A stretch of 64,000 nucleotides of DNA from Gammaproteobacteria bacterium (GTDB lineage Bacteria; Pseudomonadota; Gammaproteobacteria; Ga0077536), in assembly GCA_016191285.1 (NCBI GenBank), contig JACPPA010000013.1, positions 124,001 through 188,000 on the forward strand, read 5' to 3'. Made by a program: the position numbers and the translations under genes. The notes under the pieces were generated by a model. The model was given only the letters and a program-made list of their open reading frames with translations. It had not been told where the DNA came from and did no database searches. Shown piece after piece: positions 9,471 to 17,949 of this stretch (within the stretch, counting starts at the first letter, position 1; each line of letters begins with the position of its first letter).

Positions 9471-9515
9471 AAAAGGTGCCGGCGTGGTTATTAAATATCC
9501 ACGCCGGCACCTTTT
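9471..9515. terminator. 45-bp bidirectional hairpin terminator, copy A
   Basis: A perfect inverted repeat has arms AAAAGGTGCCGGCGTGG and its complement, with loop TTATTAAATAT. The A-run on one side and T-run on the other make it a factor-independent terminator in both directions. It sits between the rightward amidohydrolase gene and the leftward mntA/hepT remnant. Near-identical copies are at 11137, 11896 and 16263. Confidence 0.85.
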
Positions 9516-9577: not shown

Positions 9578-9733
9578 TTAATCGCTCCATTTGATCTCCA
9601 AATTGCGGATCACGGCATCGTATACCAAGCCGTCGCTACGGAACGTTTCGCGAGTGAAGCCTTGCGTGTACTGGGCGATTTTGCGCGAGCTGTCGTGAAA
9701 GTCTTCGAGATAGAACGTCCAATCACCCGACGC
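9578..9733 (-). pseudogene. Truncated HepT (HEPN-domain toxin, DUF86) remnant
   Basis: After three in-frame codons the reading is DWTFYLEDFHDSSRKIAQYTQ, and it goes on to LVYDAVIRNLEI, the conserved N-terminal half of HepT/DUF86 proteins. It then breaks off into KWSD and a stop. Full HepT is about 110-120 residues, so the catalytic C-terminal part with R-x4-6-H is missing. There is no ATG, GTG or TTG between the upstream stop and the DWTFY segment. The frame overlaps the end of the MNT gene as in intact HEPN/MNT pairs. This is read as a 3'-deleted, inactive toxin gene. Confidence 0.7.
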
Positions 9734-9998
9734 TTATCAAATCCTTTTCAATAATTTGCCGCATACGCGGTTTTATTGAGTCCCGGGTTACCAAATCCAC
9801 CCGTCTCTCGAACAGAGCTTCGAGAAAGAACTTCAGTCCCATGTAACTATCGAACGTCGGCAGCCTTTCGAATTCCACAAGTACATCGACATCGCTGTCG
9901 TTGCGTAATTCGTTGCGCGCGGCTGACCCAAAAACAGCCAGCTGCTTAGTACCGAATCGCTGGCGCGTCGTCTCGAATTGTTCGTTCAACAGTTTCAA
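9723..9998 (-). CDS. mntA: MntA-type nucleotidyltransferase antitoxin
   Basis: 91 residues. AVFGSAARNELRNDSDVDVLVEF is the minimal nucleotidyltransferase motif, with GS at 24-25 and metal aspartates at 36 and 38. RRVDLVTRDSIKPRMRQIIEKDLI is the usual MNT C-terminus. In active pairs MntA AMPylates and silences the HEPN toxin HepT; here HepT is truncated. The only available start is TTG (9998), which lies 2 bp from the boundary of a MITE-like element. The native start and promoter may therefore have been displaced. It may be a relic, though the frame is intact. Confidence 0.75.
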   Translation of the reverse strand: MKLLNEQFETTRQRFGTKQLAVFGSAARNELRNDSDVDVLVEFERLPTFDSYMGLKFFLEALFERRVDLVTRDSIKPRMRQIIEKDLISVG

Positions 9999-9999
9999 T

Positions 10000-10193
10000 A
10001 CTAAATAGCCAAGCGGAAATACCGTCCACCCTACGGGGGCCGGGCTTTAACCGTGTCGTTCCGGCGCAGGCCGGAATCCAGAACATTGAGTTATTCGACT
10101 GGGTCCCGGCGTTCGCCGGGACGACGGCAGTGCCTTCCTGATGATCCGACGCATCGCCGCGACCTGGTCGCTATTTATGCTCTTCTATTTAGT
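10000..10193. mobile_element. MITE-like element, short copy
   Basis: The ends are inverted repeats: the left end and the complement of the right end both fit CTAAATAG-N3-AGC-N2-AAATA (16 of 21 matches). Inside are REP-type palindromes (GTTCCGGCGCAGGCCGGAAT near 10057, CCCGGCGTTCGCCGGG at 10104-10119). The right part (about 10088-10192) is closely matched at 26625-26735. No ORF is inside, so it would be non-autonomous. It abuts the mntA start codon. Confidence 0.6.
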
Positions 10194-10414
10194 GATTTGT
10201 CCGTGACCGCTTAAGTTCCGAACGCGGAACTGAGTATACGCAAACCGTAGGAGAAGCGGCAGCACTCAACGACATAGTCAGTCGACTTATACATCCATTG
10301 GTCAACGTAACGGCACTACGGAGACTCCGGTGTCACAACAGACGCGGTATCGGCGCACCGACCACTTGGGCTCGATGAAAAAAAAGATAAAAGATGCCGT
10401 CGTGGTTATTGCGT

Positions 10415-10433
10415 TGTCACCAATTCGGTGACA
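10415..10433 (+). promoter_or_regulatory. Candidate HigA operator upstream of higBA
   Basis: Perfect inverted repeat TGTCACC-N5-GGTGACA, ending 10 bp before the higB start. HigA-type antitoxins usually repress their own promoter by binding such palindromes, so position and symmetry fit. No convincing -10/-35 pair could be picked around it. Confidence 0.5.
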
Positions 10434-10443
10434 CACTCGATCA

Positions 10444-10773
10444 GTGCGGATTTTTAACCGGAGTGCTATTGAACAGTACGGCCGGCGCCACGCGGCGGCG
10501 CGCGAAGCGTTACGGGCTTGGTACCATGAAGCTATTCGAGCGGATTGGGCATCGCCGGCTGACGTGAAACGCCAGTTTCCGAAAGCCTCAATCGTCGCGA
10601 ATAATCGGGTTGTGTTCGATATCGGTGGCAAAACGTATCGATTGATCGTTTCATTTAATTACGGATTTCGAAGCGGATACATCAAGTTCTTTGGCAGCCA
10701 CGCCGAATACGACCGCGTTGATGCAGCGACGGTCGATCGAACGGAAGTGCAACATGGCAAAACGAAGCGTTGA
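10444..10773 (+). CDS. higB: HigB-family mRNA interferase toxin
   Basis: 109 residues from GTG. The pattern REALRAWYHEAIRADWASPADVKRQFPKAS, then NNRVVFDIGGKTYRLIVSFNY and KFFGSHAEYDRV, is characteristic of the HigB_toxin branch of the RelE fold. HigB cleaves mRNA on the ribosome. The GTG aligns with the usual HigB start (x-RIxxRxxI). The antitoxin gene follows with a 20-bp overlap; toxin-first order is normal for HigBA. The C-terminal tail after AEYDRV is about 15 residues longer than usual and coincides with the overlap. Confidence 0.88.
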   Translation: MRIFNRSAIEQYGRRHAAAREALRAWYHEAIRADWASPADVKRQFPKASIVANNRVVFDIGGKTYRLIVSFNYGFRSGYIKFFGSHAEYDRVDAATVDRTEVQHGKTKR

Positions 10774-11131
10774 AATCGAAGTAGTCAAAAACGAACCTGG
10801 CTACCGACGCGCGCTCAAGCGCGTCGCGTGGTTCTTCGACAATCCGCCGAAGACTGGATCTTCCGCGGAGGCCGAGTTCGAGTTGCTGATGATGATGGTT
10901 GACCGCTACGAGGCTGAACATCATCCGGTGCCACCGCCCGACCCGATTGCGGCAATTGAATTCGCGATCGACCAGCGCGGCATGACGGCTGCCGATCTGC
11001 AGCAGATCCTCGGGTCCCGCCAGCGGGTGCATGACATCTTGCGCCGGAAGCGACGTTTGTCGCTTGAACATGTTCGCGCATTGCACGAGAAGCTGGGGGT
11101 GCCGGCGGAAGTTTTGATTCAGGCCTATTAG
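10754..11131 (+). CDS. higA: HigA-type HTH antitoxin
   Basis: 125 residues from the ATG at 10754; an earlier in-frame ATG at 10691 lies deep inside higB and is less likely. The N-terminal half (AEAEFELLMMMVDRYEAEHHPVPPPDPIAAIEF) is the toxin-binding part. The C-terminal half is an XRE-like HTH (MTAADLQQILGSRQRVHDILRRKRRLSLEHVRALHEKLGV). It should neutralise HigB and repress the operon through the palindrome at 10415-10433 (inference). A degenerate terminator hairpin follows 5 bp after the stop. Confidence 0.88.
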   Translation: MAKRSVEIEVVKNEPGYRRALKRVAWFFDNPPKTGSSAEAEFELLMMMVDRYEAEHHPVPPPDPIAAIEFAIDQRGMTAADLQQILGSRQRVHDILRRKRRLSLEHVRALHEKLGVPAEVLIQAY

Positions 11132-11136
11132 GTCGC

Positions 11137-11179
11137 AAAAGATGCCGGTGTGGTTATTAAATATCCGCGCCGACTTTTT
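11137..11179 (+). terminator. 45-bp hairpin family, degenerate copy B
   Basis: Arm AAAAGATGCCGGTGTGG, loop TTATTAAATAT, arm CCGCGCCGACTTTTT. The loop is identical to the other copies, but the arms have lost several pairs and one arm is 2 nt shorter. It directly follows higA and still ends in a T-run, so it may terminate rightward transcription. Confidence 0.65.
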
Positions 11180-11313
11180 CTACCGATACAAAATGGGAAG
11201 TGCCGGCGAGTCGGTACGCCTCATGCTCGAATAATCGAAACTCCGGCGATGAATTCCCACGTGTCGCGGCTATACTTACCAGCGTGTGTTTCACAATTGG
11301 GGCGCCTAAGAAT

Positions 11314-11838
11314 ATGAGCGCTGTGCCTGAGATTATCCGCCAACCATTGACCGGAGAGGCGCTAGGTCAGCGCTATCGGGAGTTATGCGCTTCCGCAATA
11401 TTCGCCAAACTACCCGGCAAGATCGAGCTCGATACCTGGGGAAGAATTCTGATGAGTCCAGCGAGCAATTATCGTGGAATTATTCAAGGGCGCCTGGCAC
11501 AACGACTATTAGTCCTTTCTGGGCAGGCGATGGTTGAAGCTTCCGTTCTGACGTCCATTGGGCTCTTGGTAGCCGATGTCGCGTGGGCCTCATCCGAATT
11601 CATGCAGGGGCATCGCGACGAAACGCCGTTTAGCCGAGCACCGGAGCTATGCATCGAGATCGCTTCGCCTTCAAATTCGATCAAGGAACTCAAGGATAAG
11701 GTGGAGGCCTACCTTGCCACGGGCTCGTTCGAAGCTTGGGTGGTCTATACGCAATCGCGACGAATTGAAGTTTTCGCGGCCGAAGGCGTGCGCCAGAAAT
11801 CGATCTACGAGATAGATCTTCAATCGTTATTCGATTGA
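11314..11838 (+). CDS. Uma2-family (DUF820) putative restriction-like endonuclease
   Basis: 174 residues from the ATG at 11314. An upstream ATG at 11200 would add 38 residues that do not resemble the family. The PD-(D/E)XK-like core is visible as LLVADVAWASSEF and PELCIEIASPSNSIKELKDKVEAYLATGSFEAWVV, the standard Uma2 signature. Uma2 proteins are abundant in cyanobacteria and scattered elsewhere; their function is unsettled. It stands alone between HigBA and kup, with a hairpin terminator on each side, as part of the accessory island. Confidence 0.82.
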   Translation: MSAVPEIIRQPLTGEALGQRYRELCASAIFAKLPGKIELDTWGRILMSPASNYRGIIQGRLAQRLLVLSGQAMVEASVLTSIGLLVADVAWASSEFMQGHRDETPFSRAPELCIEIASPSNSIKELKDKVEAYLATGSFEAWVVYTQSRRIEVFAAEGVRQKSIYEIDLQSLFD

Positions 11839-11895
11839 ACGTTCGCAAATCGCCCACCCCACTCACTGCTGACCGTAGTGGGAGCCGGCTCAGTT

Positions 11896-11940
11896 AAAAG
11901 GTGCCGGCGTGATTATTAAATATCCACGCCGGCACCTTTT
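11896..11940. terminator. 45-bp bidirectional hairpin terminator, copy C
   Basis: Same hairpin as at 9471 with one mismatch at the loop-proximal pair. It lies between the convergent Uma2 gene and kup, with A- and T-runs able to serve both. Confidence 0.85.
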
Positions 11941-11960
11941 TGCTTTCGTGAACCCGCGCG

Positions 11961-13865
11961 TCACAGCAATACCTGGGTGCCCACTTCCACCACCGCATTG
12001 CCCGGCAATTCAAAATAGGTCGCGGCGCTTTCCGCTTGACGGGTCATCCACGCAAATAACGCGCAGCGCCACGCCGGTAACCCACCGGGGCCATCGACAA
12101 TCAGGGTCCGCGCGACGAAATACGAGGTGGTCATCGGATCAAACGCAAGCGGCGGAACCTGTGCCGAACGGAGCGCATGTGGGATATCCGGCTGTTCGCG
12201 AAAACCAAAATGGAGGTCGACTTGGTACATTCCTCGATACATGCCCGACGTTAGGGCGGTGATGCTAACGCGATTCGTCGCGTACGGAACCTCGTCCGTC
12301 ACGACATGCAAAAACACCGTGATCTCATGCAGCACTTTGAAGTGCTTCAAATTATGAAATAACGCACTCGGCACCAGCGCCGGATCAGAGGTGAGATAGA
12401 CGGCGGTTCCAGGCACCAATGGCACATCCGGCGCCGGCCCACTGATGAAATCAGTCATCGGAATATCGATAGCCTGGCGGCGCTCGGCGACCAGGCGCGT
12501 CCCTTCTTTCCAGGTAGTGAGTAATAGGCAAATTACCGCGCCGAGCAGCAGAGGAACCCACCCGCCGCCAACAATCTTAGTTAGGTTTGAACCGAGAAAT
12601 CCTACCTCCAGCATACCGAATGCCGCGAACGCCAACAGCACGGGGAGCTGGCGCCGACCACGCACGCGGAGCATCACGACCACGGCGAGAATCGATGTGA
12701 TGATCATCGTGCCCGAAACGGCGATCCCGTAGGCGGCGGCGAGCCCGCTCGACGACCGGAACTGCAGCACCAGAACGATTACCGCGACGAGCATTAACCA
12801 ATTCACGCTCGGGACGTAAATCTGCCCGCGCTCGAGATCTGAGGTATGTACGGTACGCATGCGCGGGAGATAGCCTAGATGAGCGGCCTGCGCGGTGATG
12901 GAAAATGCGCCTGATATCGTGGCCTGAGAAGCGATTACCGTGGCCGCTGTCGCCAGCACCACAAGCGGCAGCAGTAGCCAGTCCGGCGCCAGGAAATAAA
13001 AGGGATTCTGCGCGCTGGCCGCATCTCGTAAAACCAGCGCGCCTTGACCAAAGTAATTCAACATCAGCGCCGGCCACACCAATCCGTACCATGCCACGCG
13101 CACGGCACGCGCGCCAAAATGCCCCATGTCGGCATACAACGCCTCGCCGCCAGTGAGCGCAAGAAAGACCGCCGAGAGCAGCAAAAATGCGGCTTGCGGA
13201 TGGGCCGCCCCAAACGCAACCGCATAGGTAGGATTCAGCGCTGCCAACACGATTGGAGTCCGCGCGATACTGGCAACGCCGAGCGACCCCAACGTCACAA
13301 ACCAAATCAGTGTCACCGGACCAAACCAACGTCCGACCTGGCCCGTCCCGCGCTTCTGAATCGCGAACAACGCGACAAGTATCCCCAACGTAATCGGGAT
13401 TACCCAATGTTCGAACTCCGGAGTTGCGACCCTGATCCCCTCGACTGCCGATAGCACCGAAATCGCGGGCGTGATGATCGCGTCGCCATAAAACAGCGCG
13501 GCGGCAAAAATCCCGACCGAAACCACTACCTGAGCGAGCCGGGCATTTTCATGTACCAAGCGATGCGCAAGCGCGGTAAGCGCAAGGACCCCGCCTTCAC
13601 CCTCGTTATCAAACCGCACGACAATCCACACGTACTTCACGGCGATGATCAGCGTGACCGCCCAGAACATGATCGATAAAGTGGCCAAGACATTAGCCTC
13701 GTTCAGAGGCAACGGATGTGACCCGGCAAAGGCCTCCTTGAAGGCATACAACGGGCTCGTTCCAATATCACCGTAGACAATCCCAAGCGCCGCTAACGCA
13801 AGCGTCCCAAGACGGCGGCGCCCAAGGCGCTCGTGCGCGAGGGTGTGCGTTGGGTCGTCGATCAC
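11961..13865 (-). CDS. kup: Kup low-affinity potassium transporter
   Basis: 634 residues, normal for Kup (about 620-650). LALAALGIVYGDIGTSPLYAFKEAF at the N-terminus is the Kup signature. About 12 membrane segments cover residues 20-450. A cytoplasmic C-terminal domain (about 460-634) ends VEVGTQVLL. Kup imports K+ with H+. It is the last gene of a leftward operon that starts with a kdpD-like kinase and kdpE; the gap to kdpE is 36 bp. A bidirectional hairpin lies 20 bp past the stop. Pairing with a KdpDE-like system instead of kdpFABC is unusual. Confidence 0.95.
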   Translation of the reverse strand: MIDDPTHTLAHERLGRRRLGTLALAALGIVYGDIGTSPLYAFKEAFAGSHPLPLNEANVLATLSIMFWAVTLIIAVKYVWIVVRFDNEGEGGVLALTALAHRLVHENARLAQVVVSVGIFAAALFYGDAIITPAISVLSAVEGIRVATPEFEHWVIPITLGILVALFAIQKRGTGQVGRWFGPVTLIWFVTLGSLGVASIARTPIVLAALNPTYAVAFGAAHPQAAFLLLSAVFLALTGGEALYADMGHFGARAVRVAWYGLVWPALMLNYFGQGALVLRDAASAQNPFYFLAPDWLLLPLVVLATAATVIASQATISGAFSITAQAAHLGYLPRMRTVHTSDLERGQIYVPSVNWLMLVAVIVLVLQFRSSSGLAAAYGIAVSGTMIITSILAVVVMLRVRGRRQLPVLLAFAAFGMLEVGFLGSNLTKIVGGGWVPLLLGAVICLLLTTWKEGTRLVAERRQAIDIPMTDFISGPAPDVPLVPGTAVYLTSDPALVPSALFHNLKHFKVLHEITVFLHVVTDEVPYATNRVSITALTSGMYRGMYQVDLHFGFREQPDIPHALRSAQVPPLAFDPMTTSYFVARTLIVDGPGGLPAWRCALFAWMTRQAESAATYFELPGNAVVEVGTQVLL

Positions 13866-13901
13866 TGGATGCTCCGCGAGGTCGTCAATGTGTGCGCCAA
13901 A

Positions 13902-14594
13902 CTACAATTGAAAACGGTAGCCAACGCCGATCTCGGTTTGAAAATGTCGCGGTTGCGCTGGGTCGCGTTCGAGCTTCTGGCGCAGCCGCCCAATGTAGAC
14001 CCGGAGATAGGTGGCGCTTTCGCTATTGCCAGGACCCCATACCTCACGCAGTAGTTGGCGATGCGTCATCACGCGACCGGCGTTCGCGATCAAGGTCGAG
14101 AGCAACCGGTATTCCAGCGCGGTAAGATGGATCGCGGCGCCCGCTTTGATTAATGTCCGGCGACTCAAATCTATTTCGACATCGCCAAAGCATACGCGCG
14201 ACTCGGTCGCGCCCGCGACTGCGTGGGCCCGACGCAACAAGGCGCGCGTGCGCGCCAGTAATTCGCCGACGGAAAACGGTTTAGTTAAATAGTCGTCCGC
14301 ACCGGCGTCCAACGCATCGATTTTGTCGTGTTCGGTCGAGCGCGCGGTAAGTACCAGTACCGGAATGTGGGACCAGATACGCATATCGCGAATAAATTGC
14401 GTCCCGTCGCCATCCGGAAAGCCAAGGTCGAGAATAACGAGGTCGGGTCGTTGCTCACCAACGCTAACCAGCGCGGTGGTCAGACGCGCCGCTTCCGCCA
14501 CGCGGCAGCCTTCGCGTTCCAGTGCATTGCGCACCATCCGTCGAATAGGCGCCTCATCTTCGACGATCAAAATGCTGGGTGAGGTCGCGTTCAC
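13902..14594 (-). CDS. kdpE: KdpE-like response regulator (OmpR family)
   Basis: 230 residues when started at the GTG that overlaps the kdpD stop (GTGA, 14594). The open frame extends further upstream, but only this start gives the normal KdpE length. Receiver domain: ILIVEDEAPIRR with acidic pocket at 12-13, phosphoacceptor Asp56 in LVILDLGFPDGDG and Lys in DYLTKPF. The C-terminal winged helix has LTALEYRLLSTLIANAGRVMTHRQLLREVWG and YLRVYIGRLRQKLE, characteristic of KdpE. It probably controls its own operon and hence kup; the direct repeat at 16204-16222 is the candidate site. Confidence 0.92.
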   Translation of the reverse strand: MNATSPSILIVEDEAPIRRMVRNALEREGCRVAEAARLTTALVSVGEQRPDLVILDLGFPDGDGTQFIRDMRIWSHIPVLVLTARSTEHDKIDALDAGADDYLTKPFSVGELLARTRALLRRAHAVAGATESRVCFGDVEIDLSRRTLIKAGAAIHLTALEYRLLSTLIANAGRVMTHRQLLREVWGPGNSESATYLRVYIGRLRQKLERDPAQPRHFQTEIGVGYRFQL

Positions 14595-16159
14595 GGCTGT
14601 AGTGTTGAATCTTCGGGATCCGGCGCGATATCCGGCGGGCTTCCGAGCGGTAAAGTGAACGTCACGCACGCCCCTGTTTGTTCATTGGCCGCCGTGATCG
14701 TGCCCCCATGAACTTCAATGATCGCCTTGCAAATCGCCAAGCCCATCCCAACGCCAGTGGTCGTGGACTCGCTTTCGCCACGCGTGAACAAATCAAAAAT
14801 TGTCGCGAGCTTATCGCGTGGGAAGCCGTTGCCGACGTTGCGAATGGATACTTCAGCGAAGCCATCGACCGCTTCGGCACCGATCGTGATCGCACCTTCG
14901 TGTGCCGCGTACTTCGCGGCATTTTCGAGTAGGTTACCCAGCACGCGTTCCAGTAATACCGCGTCGAATTCGAGTAACGGTAGCCGGTCTGCGATCTTGA
15001 CCGTCAAGCAATGACCAGCAAGTGTGGTCTCGAGTAGTTTGATACTGGCGCCGATCACTTCTTCGATCGGCTGCCACTCCTTCTTCAAACGCACACTCCC
15101 CGTTTGCAGCCGCGCCATATCCAGGAGATTAGTGACCATATGATTTAGACGCAGCGCTTGTCGGCGAATCGTTTCGAGCGATTCGCGGGCGGAGTGCGGG
15201 AGAGCAGAGGCGTCCAGTAAAAGGGAGTCCGCTAACCCGTACATTGTTGTTAACGGAGTACGCACATCGTGCGATATCGCGGACAATATCGAACTACGCA
15301 AGCGTTCGGCCGCCGTCTCAAGCTGACTGTCTTGGGCGACGGCGACGAAATGCAAGCGCTCCAAAGTGGTCGCCAGCAACGACGCCAGCGCTTCGAGTAA
15401 TTGCCGCTCGTCTTTCAACGTTGCATCGGTCATCGCTATCCCCGTAACGATGAGTACCCCACGTGGGCGGATTGCACCGCGCAGCGGCAACATCAACGTC
15501 AATCGCGGTTCGGCGCCGAGGTCGCTCGATTCGACCCGTTCACCAGACAAATACACGGTGCGCGCAGCCAGCAGTTCGGTATTCGCGAGCAAGCGACGTG
15601 GCCGTCCAAGCGGTTTCAGGGATTCGGTCGAATCGGGCACGAGGATTTGAAACGGTCGACCCAAATGGGTATCGAAATAGCGCTCGATTGTGTCGAGCAT
15701 CTGATCGATAGACGCCGCGCCGCTTAGCGCGTGGGCCAACGAATACAGGGTCTGGGTCTGACGTTCACGGCGTCGGGCTGCCTCGGCGCTGTCGCGTAAG
15801 CCGGTTGTGAGTGTACTGATCAAGATGGCCACCGCGAGCATCACGGCGAACGTCACGAGGTACTGGAGATTGTTGACAGTGAAGGAAAAATACGGCGGGA
15901 CAAAAAAGAAATCGAAAGCGGCAACGCTAACGAACGCGGCCAGGATGCCTGGGATTTGCCCGGCTTTCGCTGCTACGATTGCCACAGTCAGCAAGAACAA
16001 CATGACGATGTTCGCGGCGTCTAAAAACTGCCGCGTCGCAAAGGCGCCAGCAGTCGTCAGGCCGCAGGCCAATAGTGTGAACAGCAAGTCCCTGGTGAAC
16101 GACGTCGATTCGGCGTCCGGCGGCGTCGCGACTTGGCTGGAAGTCGAGTCCGTGGTCAT
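14591..16159 (-). CDS. kdpD: KdpD-like sensor histidine kinase lacking the N-terminal KdpD/Usp domain
   Basis: 522 residues against about 890 in E. coli KdpD. Missing is the roughly 380-residue cytoplasmic N-terminal part with KdpD and universal-stress domains. Four membrane segments cover about 25-120, including FFFVPPYFSFTV, typical of KdpD. A GAF-like region spans about 140-270. The kinase core has His297 in SAISHDVRTPLT, N-box NLLENAAKYA and G-box GVGMGLAICKAIIEVHGG. Short KdpD forms exist in some bacteria, so this may be a natural variant, not a broken gene. It starts the kdpD-kdpE-kup operon. Confidence 0.9.
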   Translation of the reverse strand: MTTDSTSSQVATPPDAESTSFTRDLLFTLLACGLTTAGAFATRQFLDAANIVMLFLLTVAIVAAKAGQIPGILAAFVSVAAFDFFFVPPYFSFTVNNLQYLVTFAVMLAVAILISTLTTGLRDSAEAARRRERQTQTLYSLAHALSGAASIDQMLDTIERYFDTHLGRPFQILVPDSTESLKPLGRPRRLLANTELLAARTVYLSGERVESSDLGAEPRLTLMLPLRGAIRPRGVLIVTGIAMTDATLKDERQLLEALASLLATTLERLHFVAVAQDSQLETAAERLRSSILSAISHDVRTPLTTMYGLADSLLLDASALPHSARESLETIRRQALRLNHMVTNLLDMARLQTGSVRLKKEWQPIEEVIGASIKLLETTLAGHCLTVKIADRLPLLEFDAVLLERVLGNLLENAAKYAAHEGAITIGAEAVDGFAEVSIRNVGNGFPRDKLATIFDLFTRGESESTTTGVGMGLAICKAIIEVHGGTITAANEQTGACVTFTLPLGSPPDIAPDPEDSTLQP

Positions 16160-16203
16160 AACTACCGCTATTTGTAACTGCTATTTCCCAGCATGGCGCA
16201 GTC

Positions 16204-16222
16204 GGTATAAAAACGGTGTAAA
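16204..16222 (-). promoter_or_regulatory. Candidate KdpE direct-repeat operator
   Basis: On the leftward strand the sequence is TTTACACC-GTT-TTTATACC. These are two nearly identical 8-mers with an 11-bp period, the spacing OmpR-family dimers use. The half-sites resemble the TTTATAC/TTTACAC pair reported upstream of E. coli kdpFABC. The site ends 45 bp before the kdpD start, suggesting autoregulation of the operon. Confidence 0.5.
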
Positions 16223-16262
16223 CGTGGATGGGCATCGCGCCATACGACTCGACTAACCGCCT

Positions 16263-16307
16263 AAAAGGTGCCGGCGTGGTTATTAAATATCCACGCCGGC
16301 ACCTTTT
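16263..16307. terminator. 45-bp bidirectional hairpin terminator, copy D
   Basis: Identical by eye to copy A (9471-9515). It lies 8 bp beyond the stop of the leftward flavin monooxygenase gene and upstream of kdpD. Confidence 0.88.
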
Positions 16308-16314
16308 TGGTTAG

Positions 16315-17949
16315 CTAGACCGTCAGCGCAAATCCTTCGTAACCACGTGCGGCGACTTCCTTGCATTTGACGACATACGGCGGCACACCGAGGTACGGCA
16401 TGAAGATGCGTGGCTTACCGGGAATGTTGGCGCCTAGGTACCACGAATTGCAGTTCGGGTAGAGGGTGGTGTGAGCCACCGCATTAACGTGTTCGACCCA
16501 CTGGCTCTCCGCGTCCTCGGTCGCCTCAATAGTGCGCACCCCGCGCCGGTGCACGTAATCAATACACTCGCTCACCCAATTCACATGCTGTTCGATCGAC
16601 GGCAACATGTTCGACAGCACCGACGGACTACCGGGACCCGTAATCGTGAATAGATTGGGGAAACCCGCGGTGGCCAACCCGAGATAAGTGCGTGGACCGG
16701 CCGCCCATTTGGTTTTGAGTGCGAGGCCACCCTTGCCGCGAATATCAATTTTCTCCAAAGCGCCGGTCATCGCATCGAAACCGGTGGCAAAGATCAGGCG
16801 GTCGAAAGTGTATTCGGTATCTTGCACGCGCAGTCCATGCGGCGTGATTTCTTCGATGGGCGTAGTGCTGACATCCACCAATGTGACGTTGGGGCGATTG
16901 AAGGTAGCGTAGTAGCCGCTGTCGAGGCATAGGCGCTTACAGCCAACGACTTGGCGCGGCACTAATTTTTCGGCGAGTGCGGGATCTTTCACGATTGAGC
17001 GGATCTTGTCGCGGATGAATTCGGCGGCTGTCTCGTTGGCCTCTCCGCTCACGAGGAGATCACCATAGGCGCCGAGAAAGCCCAGGCTTCCATAATGCCA
17101 GCGTGCTTCGTATTCGCGCGTCCGCTCCTCGACCGCCACACTCAGCGCGGATTCGGGATTCGTTCGGAAATCAACGCCAAAGGGTTGTTGCCAATTGCGC
17201 GCGCGATACGCGGCGTAATCCGCTTTGATCGACTTCACCGAATCTAGATCGAGCGGACCGTTTTGCGCAGGGACCGAGTAACTCGCGGTGCGTTGAAACA
17301 CATGCAAATGCGCGGCCTGCTCGGCAATCAGCGGAATGGATTGGATGGCGGACGATCCGGTACCGATAATGCCCACGCGCTGGCCAGAAAAATCAACGCC
17401 TGCGTGCGGCCAATCACCTGTGTGATAGATCGGGCCAGAGAAATTTTCGAGGCCCTTGAACTGTGGACGATTGGTCGACGACAAGCACCCCGTCGCCATC
17501 ACGCAATACGTCGCAGTTATCGATTCACCGCGCTCGGTGGTAATCGCCCACCGCCCACTCGCGTCGTCGAACACCGCGGCGCGCACTCGCGTATTGAATT
17601 GAATATCGCGGCGTAGATCGAAGCGATCGGTCACGTGATTGGCGTAGCGCAGAATCTCGGGCTGTGTCGCATAACGTTCACTCCACGCCCATTCCTGCTG
17701 GAGCTCGGGCGAAAATTGATACGAATACTCCATGCTGAGCACATCGCAGCGCGCGCCCGGATAGCGATTCCAGTACCAGGTTCCACCGACTCCGTCGCCC
17801 GCTTCGAGCACTCGTGCGGCGAGTCCCAATTGGCGTAAGCGATGGAGCATATAGATCCCGGCAAAGCCCGCGCCGACAATAACGGCGTCTAATGAGGTGC
17901 GACCTGGTTCAGTTTGGGAGGTAACAGCGGACTTTTGAATCACGGGCAT
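16315..17949 (-). CDS. Flavin-containing Baeyer-Villiger-type monooxygenase
   Basis: 544 residues. FAD-binding GAGFAG at 26-31 is followed by GDGVGGTWYWNRYPGARCD, the standard BVMO start. The BVMO fingerprint F-x-G-x3-H-T-x2-W-P is present at 170-181 (FSGPIYHTGDWP), and the NADPH Rossmann motif GIIGTGSSAIQ lies at 193-203. Family members insert oxygen next to a ketone carbonyl, using NADPH and O2, in degradation of cyclic ketones, steroids or terpenoids. Substrate not readable. It is a single leftward gene with its own hairpin terminator. Confidence 0.93.
   Translation of the reverse strand: MPVIQKSAVTSQTEPGRTSLDAVIVGAGFAGIYMLHRLRQLGLAARVLEAGDGVGGTWYWNRYPGARCDVLSMEYSYQFSPELQQEWAWSERYATQPEILRYANHVTDRFDLRRDIQFNTRVRAAVFDDASGRWAITTERGESITATYCVMATGCLSSTNRPQFKGLENFSGPIYHTGDWPHAGVDFSGQRVGIIGTGSSAIQSIPLIAEQAAHLHVFQRTASYSVPAQNGPLDLDSVKSIKADYAAYRARNWQQPFGVDFRTNPESALSVAVEERTREYEARWHYGSLGFLGAYGDLLVSGEANETAAEFIRDKIRSIVKDPALAEKLVPRQVVGCKRLCLDSGYYATFNRPNVTLVDVSTTPIEEITPHGLRVQDTEYTFDRLIFATGFDAMTGALEKIDIRGKGGLALKTKWAAGPRTYLGLATAGFPNLFTITGPGSPSVLSNMLPSIEQHVNWVSECIDYVHRRGVRTIEATEDAESQWVEHVNAVAHTTLYPNCNSWYLGANIPGKPRIFMPYLGVPPYVVKCKEVAARGYEGFALTV

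Follow-up and report, generated by a model that had tools for sequence, protein, structure and literature searches.

In Escherichia coli, the N-terminal half of the sensor kinase KdpD acts as an atypical serine kinase and inhibits KdpB (PMC11018627), and the site of the response regulator KdpE consists of two 6-bp repeats, TTTATA and TTTACA, set 5 bp apart, with R193, R200 and T215 of KdpE as the DNA-contact residues (PMC3264566). The joining of a KdpDE pair to a gene for the K+ transporter Kup has already been published for Azotobacter, where the order is kdpD1-kdpE1-kupA (Achr_19800-19820, Avin_24520-24540; PMC4465626). That account states, as an annotation without data, that KdpD1E1 regulate KupA; its K+ section does not discuss the length of KdpD1, a box, or spread of the arrangement to other genomes. 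A Kup gene of Geobacter sulfurreducens, GSU2485, is also tied to kdp genes, as in our operon, but it sits 3' of the kdp cluster, where a riboswitch appears to control it, and the passage describing it mentions no dedicated short kinase-regulator pair (PMC2700814). Here we describe an operon with the Azotobacter gene order in a 64,000-nucleotide stretch of a Gammaproteobacteria bacterium genome (GCA_016191285.1, contig JACPPA010000013.1, positions 124,001 to 188,000), hereafter the window. Its three leftward genes, at 11961-16159, encode a short KdpD-type kinase, a KdpE-type regulator and Kup.

We consider it probable that this is an autoregulated operon in which a KdpE box induces Kup at K+ limitation. 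The short kinase would sense K+ status through its DUF4118 membrane region and its GAF-like region, and would phosphorylate the regulator. This in turn would bind a box standing in place of the -35 element and, under K+ limitation, activate rather than repress the operon that encodes it, kup included. The elements of the locus are as follows.

14591-16159, minus strand: short KdpD-type sensor histidine kinase, 522 amino acids (Pfam, alignment, structure model)
13902-14594, minus strand: KdpE-type response regulator of the OmpR/PhoB class (Pfam; likely GTG start by homology)
11961-13865, minus strand: Kup-family K+ transporter, 634 amino acids (K_trans and K_trans_C)
16206-16222, minus strand: KdpE-type box TTTACACCGTTTTTATA (matrix trained on kdpFABC promoters)
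16190-16195, minus strand: candidate -10 element CATGCT (promoter alignment; putative function)
16267-16303, minus strand: near-perfect palindrome flanked by runs of A and of T, in the gap that separates the operon from the upstream gene
11900-11936, minus strand: second copy of that palindrome, directly 3' of kup

The coordinates and gene order agree with a preliminary description of this DNA, which had placed a KdpDE-type pair and Kup in one leftward operon with a 36-bp gap, the distance found between the regulator stop and the Kup start. The operon resembles E. coli KdpD/KdpE in the C-terminal half of the kinase (38% identity over E. coli KdpD residues 409-893), in the regulator (58%), in the contact residues and in the kind of box, but differs in having Kup as its transporter and in lacking the KdpD/Usp half of the kinase. 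Pfam searches with the window kinase returned DUF4118 (106 bits), HisKA (56.7 bits) and HATPase_c (90.9 bits) and gave no match to PF02702 or Usp. DUF4118 forms a four-helix membrane part at residues 26-131 and is followed by a GAF-like region at about 151-241, whose GAF match of 17.1 bits is under the cut-off of 27, and by the HisKA domain, in which H297 is the phosphoacceptor predicted by homology. The structure model, with a mean predicted local distance difference test score of 87.6 and a predicted template modelling score of 0.57, has helices at 17-41, 48-66, 68-86 and 98-146, an alpha/beta region at 151-241 in the GAF position, and then the transmitter. A Foldseek search with this model placed the KdpD entry 6lgq third, covering the transmitter with a template modelling score of 0.83 by target length. 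The match to the NCBIfam KdpD equivalog NF007793 spans model positions 403-892 and, at 426.3 bits, does not reach the cut-off of 1123. Since the alignment to E. coli KdpD begins only at residue 409, the N-terminal half is absent, as the preliminary description had recognized, and the domains that we find (membrane, GAF-like and transmitter only) fit its view that sensing is left to the membrane and GAF-like parts. This also holds true for related proteins: the 10 Pfam families matched by one or more of 34 short kinases (E<=0.01) include neither PF02702 nor Usp, and 28 of these kinases have a GAF_3 match at that threshold. The membrane/GAF/transmitter chain of split KdpD systems has the same domain make-up, but there the serine-kinase half persists as a separate protein (PMC11018627); none such is present in the window genome.

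The listed start of the regulator (13902-14669) probably lies too far upstream: a GTG at 14594 overlaps the stop codon of the kinase gene as GTGA, and homology also points to this GTG as the start. It contains Response_reg and Trans_reg_C domains and scores 305.7 bits on the NCBIfam KdpE model NF007820, below the cut-off of 325, with the next family at 189.5. It is 55.7% identical to the genome's own KdpE, and in the alignment the counterparts of E. coli R193, R200 and T215 are invariant in both. Kup matches K_trans (595.6 bits) and K_trans_C (131.5 bits); it passes TIGR00794 (547.4 against a cut-off of 539.6) and falls below NF008015, the NCBIfam equivalog for the E. coli-type low-affinity Kup (660.8 against 883). 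The kup start codon is GTG, preceded by GGAG. A riboswitch in the kup operon was considered and rejected, as an Rfam search of window 11800-16500 returned no family at threshold.

The box was located with a 23-column matrix built from 34 consensus-found sites in 43 kdpA upstream regions of full kdp loci. No short-kinase locus entered the training, and whole short-kinase loci were scanned on both strands. The best matrix site, on either strand, lies no more than 350 bp upstream of the kinase or transporter gene in 40 of 45 short-kinase loci (39 if the listed rather than the corrected start of L125 is used), and the median score of the short-kinase locus sites is 23.1 bits. The regions counted as upstream make up 4.9% of the scanned sequence; column permutation yielded 60 control matrices of equal AT richness, which reached a mean of 6.6 and a maximum of 20 of the 45 loci, with a median score of at most 11.8. 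The window box scores about 25.3 bits (25.1-25.3), its first base precedes the kinase ATG by 63 bp, and the next best site in the 64 kb scores 12.9. The KdpDE-Kup tie drawn in the preliminary description is thus strengthened by a KdpE-type box at the operon promoter. In three divergent loci (L037, L038 and L128) the best box points towards kup or trkH, and in L127 boxes point both ways.

Upstream regions usable for promoter alignment numbered 25 of 33 for Kup operons and 40 of 43 for kdpA. All 25 Kup-operon promoters have the T, and 24 the A, of a -10-like element at a fixed distance after the second half-site. The window candidate CATGCT begins 10 bp past the second half-site, the same offset as in the 25 aligned promoters, and this spacing equals that from the promoter-proximal half-site in the 40 kdpFABC promoters. 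The latter carry an extra half-site pair upstream, giving two tandem pairs in canonical kdp promoters versus one promoter-proximal box in Kup operons. The half-site to -10 layout is that of an activator site replacing the -35 element, as with PhoB boxes. Two loci with a canonical kdp system, L101 (position 13693, 33.8 bits) and L121 (position 2964, 30.2 bits), have strong KdpE boxes just upstream of kup, which there appears to be wired to a KdpE box without a short pair.

The preliminary description had also spoken of an operon without kdpFABC, and had named a genome search for kdpFABC and a full-length kdpD as a refuting check. The operon has none adjoining. Of the kdpFABC genes that search covered kdpA, kdpB and kdpC, and it found all three in a canonical locus on contig C31, together with a gene for a KdpE-type regulator and a kdpD encoding a full-length protein of 907 amino acids. 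Absence of kdpFABC from the genome is therefore not supported, and we reject it. The C31 locus, which is not beside the kup operon, holds the sole KdpA match of the genome and its sole PF02702 match, which belongs to the full-length KdpD; a split KdpD with its N-terminal half encoded elsewhere is accordingly rejected for this genome. The window kinase is 44.6% identical to that KdpD. In all, the genome encodes two DUF4118 proteins and three Kups. The operon Kup shares 46% and 41.5% identity with the other two, and the kdpFABC-trained matrix finds no box above 9.0 bits in the DNA surrounding those two.

A second locus of this kind raises the possibility that the canonical KdpE from C31, alone or with the operon regulator, drives kup through a shared box, with the short pair being auxiliary. 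The box of the genome's own kdpFABC promoter scores about 26 bits (25.8-26.2), much like that of the window, and both regulators keep the three contact residues; cross-control by the canonical KdpE is therefore possible, and in L101 and L121 kup carries a strong box beside a full kdp system. On the other side, the catalytic motifs are kept in the short kinases of the window clade (34-row alignment), unlike what decay would leave, and a check of 13 genomes that carry a short kinase linked to a transporter (87-100% complete) found no kdpA in 12, so that the short pair there probably acts without a kdp locus. We regard control by the canonical KdpE as unlikely. A canonical kdp locus in the genome is not enough to refute a pair dedicated to kup: the two systems co-exist here, and kdpA was not found in those 12 genomes. 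The same count was also considered as a sign that short pairs replace a lost kdp locus, and proved uninformative: kdpA is present in only 44 of 369 genomes sampled from the class and missing from the other 325, so 12 of 13 is no enrichment.

The linkage of short kinase, regulator and K+ transporter recurs in other genomes, in answer to a question raised with the preliminary description. Among the best 80 of 560 related loci in named genomes, picked by similarity to the window kinase, 31 have short and 49 full-length kinases, and kdpB is in the locus for 42 of the 49. All 29 short-kinase loci with room downstream adjoin a K+ transporter or channel gene. In 26 of the 31 short loci kup directly follows the regulator on the same strand; the remaining loci have trkH in two cases (L061, L091), an ion-channel gene with a TrkA-N (RCK-type) domain in L106, and a contig edge that hides the downstream side in L049 and L055. 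Across the window genome and its relatives, DUF4118 matches occur in 17 of 58 genomes and Kup in 23 of 58. Kinase-regulator-kup operons lie on one strand in relatives G027 and G030 and are divergent in G018 and G010. The kup of G001, a genome of the same genus, is 63% identical, and its 13-kb surroundings showed no kinase-regulator pair. From the class sample, 19 regions were taken from among the DUF4118 matches, and seven of their nine short kinase-regulator pairs adjoin Kup or TrkH; L138 and L142 show no clear kinase-regulator pair. A kinase close to kup is short in G000, G272, G109 and G305 and part of a full kdp locus in G013, G233 and G399, and short pairs adjoin trkH in G158, G071, G194, G397 and G012.

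A quick maximum-likelihood tree of 99 kinases (L060, on the same contig as L036, was left out here and in the box counts) places 33 short kinases, including that of the window, in one group among full KdpDs, with a Shimodaira-Hasegawa-like approximate likelihood ratio test support of 100. This group comprises 29 kinases linked to Kup, one to TrkH, one to a channel, and two at contig ends. Other Kup-linked short kinases occur at three further places (L037 with L038, L120, and L126), so that Kup-linked short kinases occupy four separate places, and at least five changes between full and short forms are needed. A separate tree of the regulators requires two changes for the 28 that belong to the short-kinase group. 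A tabulation of the N-terminal half against kdpB, the absence of which was judged within locus DNA only, gave 46 full kinases with kdpB in the locus, 43 short kinases without kdpB in their own operon and three full kinases without kdpB. It leaves out L049 and L055 (short, at contig ends) and L078, L092, L096, L100 and L136 (full, upstream cut), and it counts L073 as short without its own kdpB, although a separate kdp operon with a full KdpD is present in that locus.

Could the KdpDE-like pair and kup be mere neighbours with no functional link? Operon structure alone is no proof of regulation, and the repeated palindromes on either side of the operon could be the mark of a moved cassette. The linkage is found in four places of the kinase tree together with a matching box, and this recurrence strongly disfavours a chance neighbourhood, which we judge to be very improbable. 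It is slightly more likely than not that KdpDE has been re-aimed several times, at Kup, at TrkH and at an RCK-type channel, with each kinase lacking its KdpB-directed half and the KdpE box being kept. The N-terminal half is probably absent because the partner is Kup and not KdpFABC, whose KdpB that half would address.

Several related loci vary the theme. Accumulibacter L106 (9384-13626) has the short KdpDE pair followed by the TrkA-N ion-channel gene in place of kup, with a phosphotransferase system (PTS) EIIA-family gene upstream on the opposite strand. L132 (6806-11551) has, in a same-strand run, trkH, a short kinase without the GAF-like region, a KdpE-type regulator and a TrkA gene, a putative Trk system with a built-in KdpDE-type pair. 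L125 (6140-7210) encodes a Kup-linked short kinase of 428 amino acids that also lacks the GAF-like region.

The signal itself could be other than K+: the short kinase might answer turgor, ionic strength or the state of the nitrogen-related PTS (PTS-Ntr) through its GAF-like region, with kup serving osmotic or nitrogen status. EIIA-Ntr binds the KdpD GAF domain in Sinorhizobium fredii (PMC9239096), and a PTS EIIA gene adjoins the related operon in L106. Yet the K+-sensing sites of E. coli KdpD have been placed in the transmembrane and GAF domains (PMC11018627), the DUF4118 region is well conserved at 106 bits, and L125 and L132 keep their transporter linkage without a GAF region. A non-K+ signal seems rather improbable to us, and we retain K+ limitation as the probable inducing condition.

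Several observations weigh against induction of Kup through the KdpE box or against repeated re-aiming. The box is missed in five of the 45 loci. The close relative L036 shares the operon, but its site scores only 6 bits; the best site of L131 reaches only 9.7 bits; in L041 a 14.7-bit site is second in the locus; and L133 and L137 (G352, G121), the two class-sample short pairs with no adjoining K+ transporter, have no box. In the divergent loci L126 and L041 the site points to the kinase rather than the transporter. Kup is described as constitutive in E. coli (PMC5401905), and KdpE binding to the kup promoter is absent in S. fredii (PMC9239096), so the wiring proposed here would be a departure. 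The 80 loci are similarity-chosen and not an unbiased sample, the kinase tree is quick and without bootstrap, and the full kinases L075, L094 and L095 have no kdpB in the locus sequence. Independent contrasts come to four pairs on supported branches, all in the right direction (sign test p 0.125). With only four such pairs, the rule that the N-terminal half goes with kdpB is consistent with the data but not statistically established.

The consensus patterns also fail against controls. A tight pattern, TTTAYRNNNTNTTTAYA, written after both promoters had been seen, has two exact matches in the genome, at the kdpFABC and kup promoters; with one mismatch allowed it has 11 matches in all versus 18 for the reversed control, and the loose pattern TTTAYRN5TTTAYR is no rarer, with 5 matches versus 5. 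The consensus as a stand-alone genome test was dropped for this reason, and the case therefore rests on the trained matrix, the permuted controls and the comparison between genomes. Scored with the matrix, the 11 pattern-selected sites have kdpFABC and kup highest, at 25.8 and 25.1 bits, with three others at 18.0-20.2 bits and six at 11.3 bits or less. From their translations, we take the three intermediate sites to be in or before genes resembling gatA, a YqeC-like gene and cstA.

If the proposed mechanism is correct, Kup would be inducible by K+ limitation in these bacteria, and many environmental bacteria, including the wastewater genera Accumulibacter, Dechloromonas and Zoogloea, would have it as a regulated importer in place of a constitutive one. 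The presence or absence of the KdpD N-terminal half would then predict whether the partner is KdpFABC. These loci offer a natural experiment on the function of that half: among the loci compared it is missing from kinases beside other K+ transporters and present beside kdpFABC, as the 2024 serine-kinase work would predict (PMC11018627). They would also offer a minimal K+ sensor of membrane, GAF-like and transmitter parts only. In the literature searched, with most subscription journals lying outside it, we found only PMC4465626 describing a KdpDE-Kup operon, and no account of the box, of recurrent rewiring or of how the missing domain relates to the partner.

Three further loci show unusual arrangements. 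L037 (7780-8517) has a DUF4118 stretch with no kinase domain match beside kup, and L085 (10593-11351) a DUF4118-GAF-like stretch with no kinase domain match beside a KdpE-type gene; both have a strong KdpE box upstream and are possibly kinase-less sensor proteins. In L073 (8872-21401) a full kdpD and a KdpE-like gene are separated by a short kinase-regulator-kup operon, which runs on the other strand and looks like an insertion between kdpD and kdpE.

The palindromes of the window are three near-identical 37-bp copies with A/T runs, at 9475-9511, 11900-11936 and 16267-16303, and one further copy with 2 mismatches is present in the genome, on contig C38. Two copies closely flank the kup operon: that at 16267-16303 is probably a terminator between the upstream gene and the operon, and that at 11900-11936 probably the terminator of the operon itself. 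The third bounds the adjoining small-gene cluster at 9723-11838, which lies between two palindromes and contains, by Pfam, genes of a nucleotidyltransferase domain, of the HigB toxin family with a helix-turn-helix partner, and of the Uma2 family, a predicted small toxin-antitoxin-like cluster.

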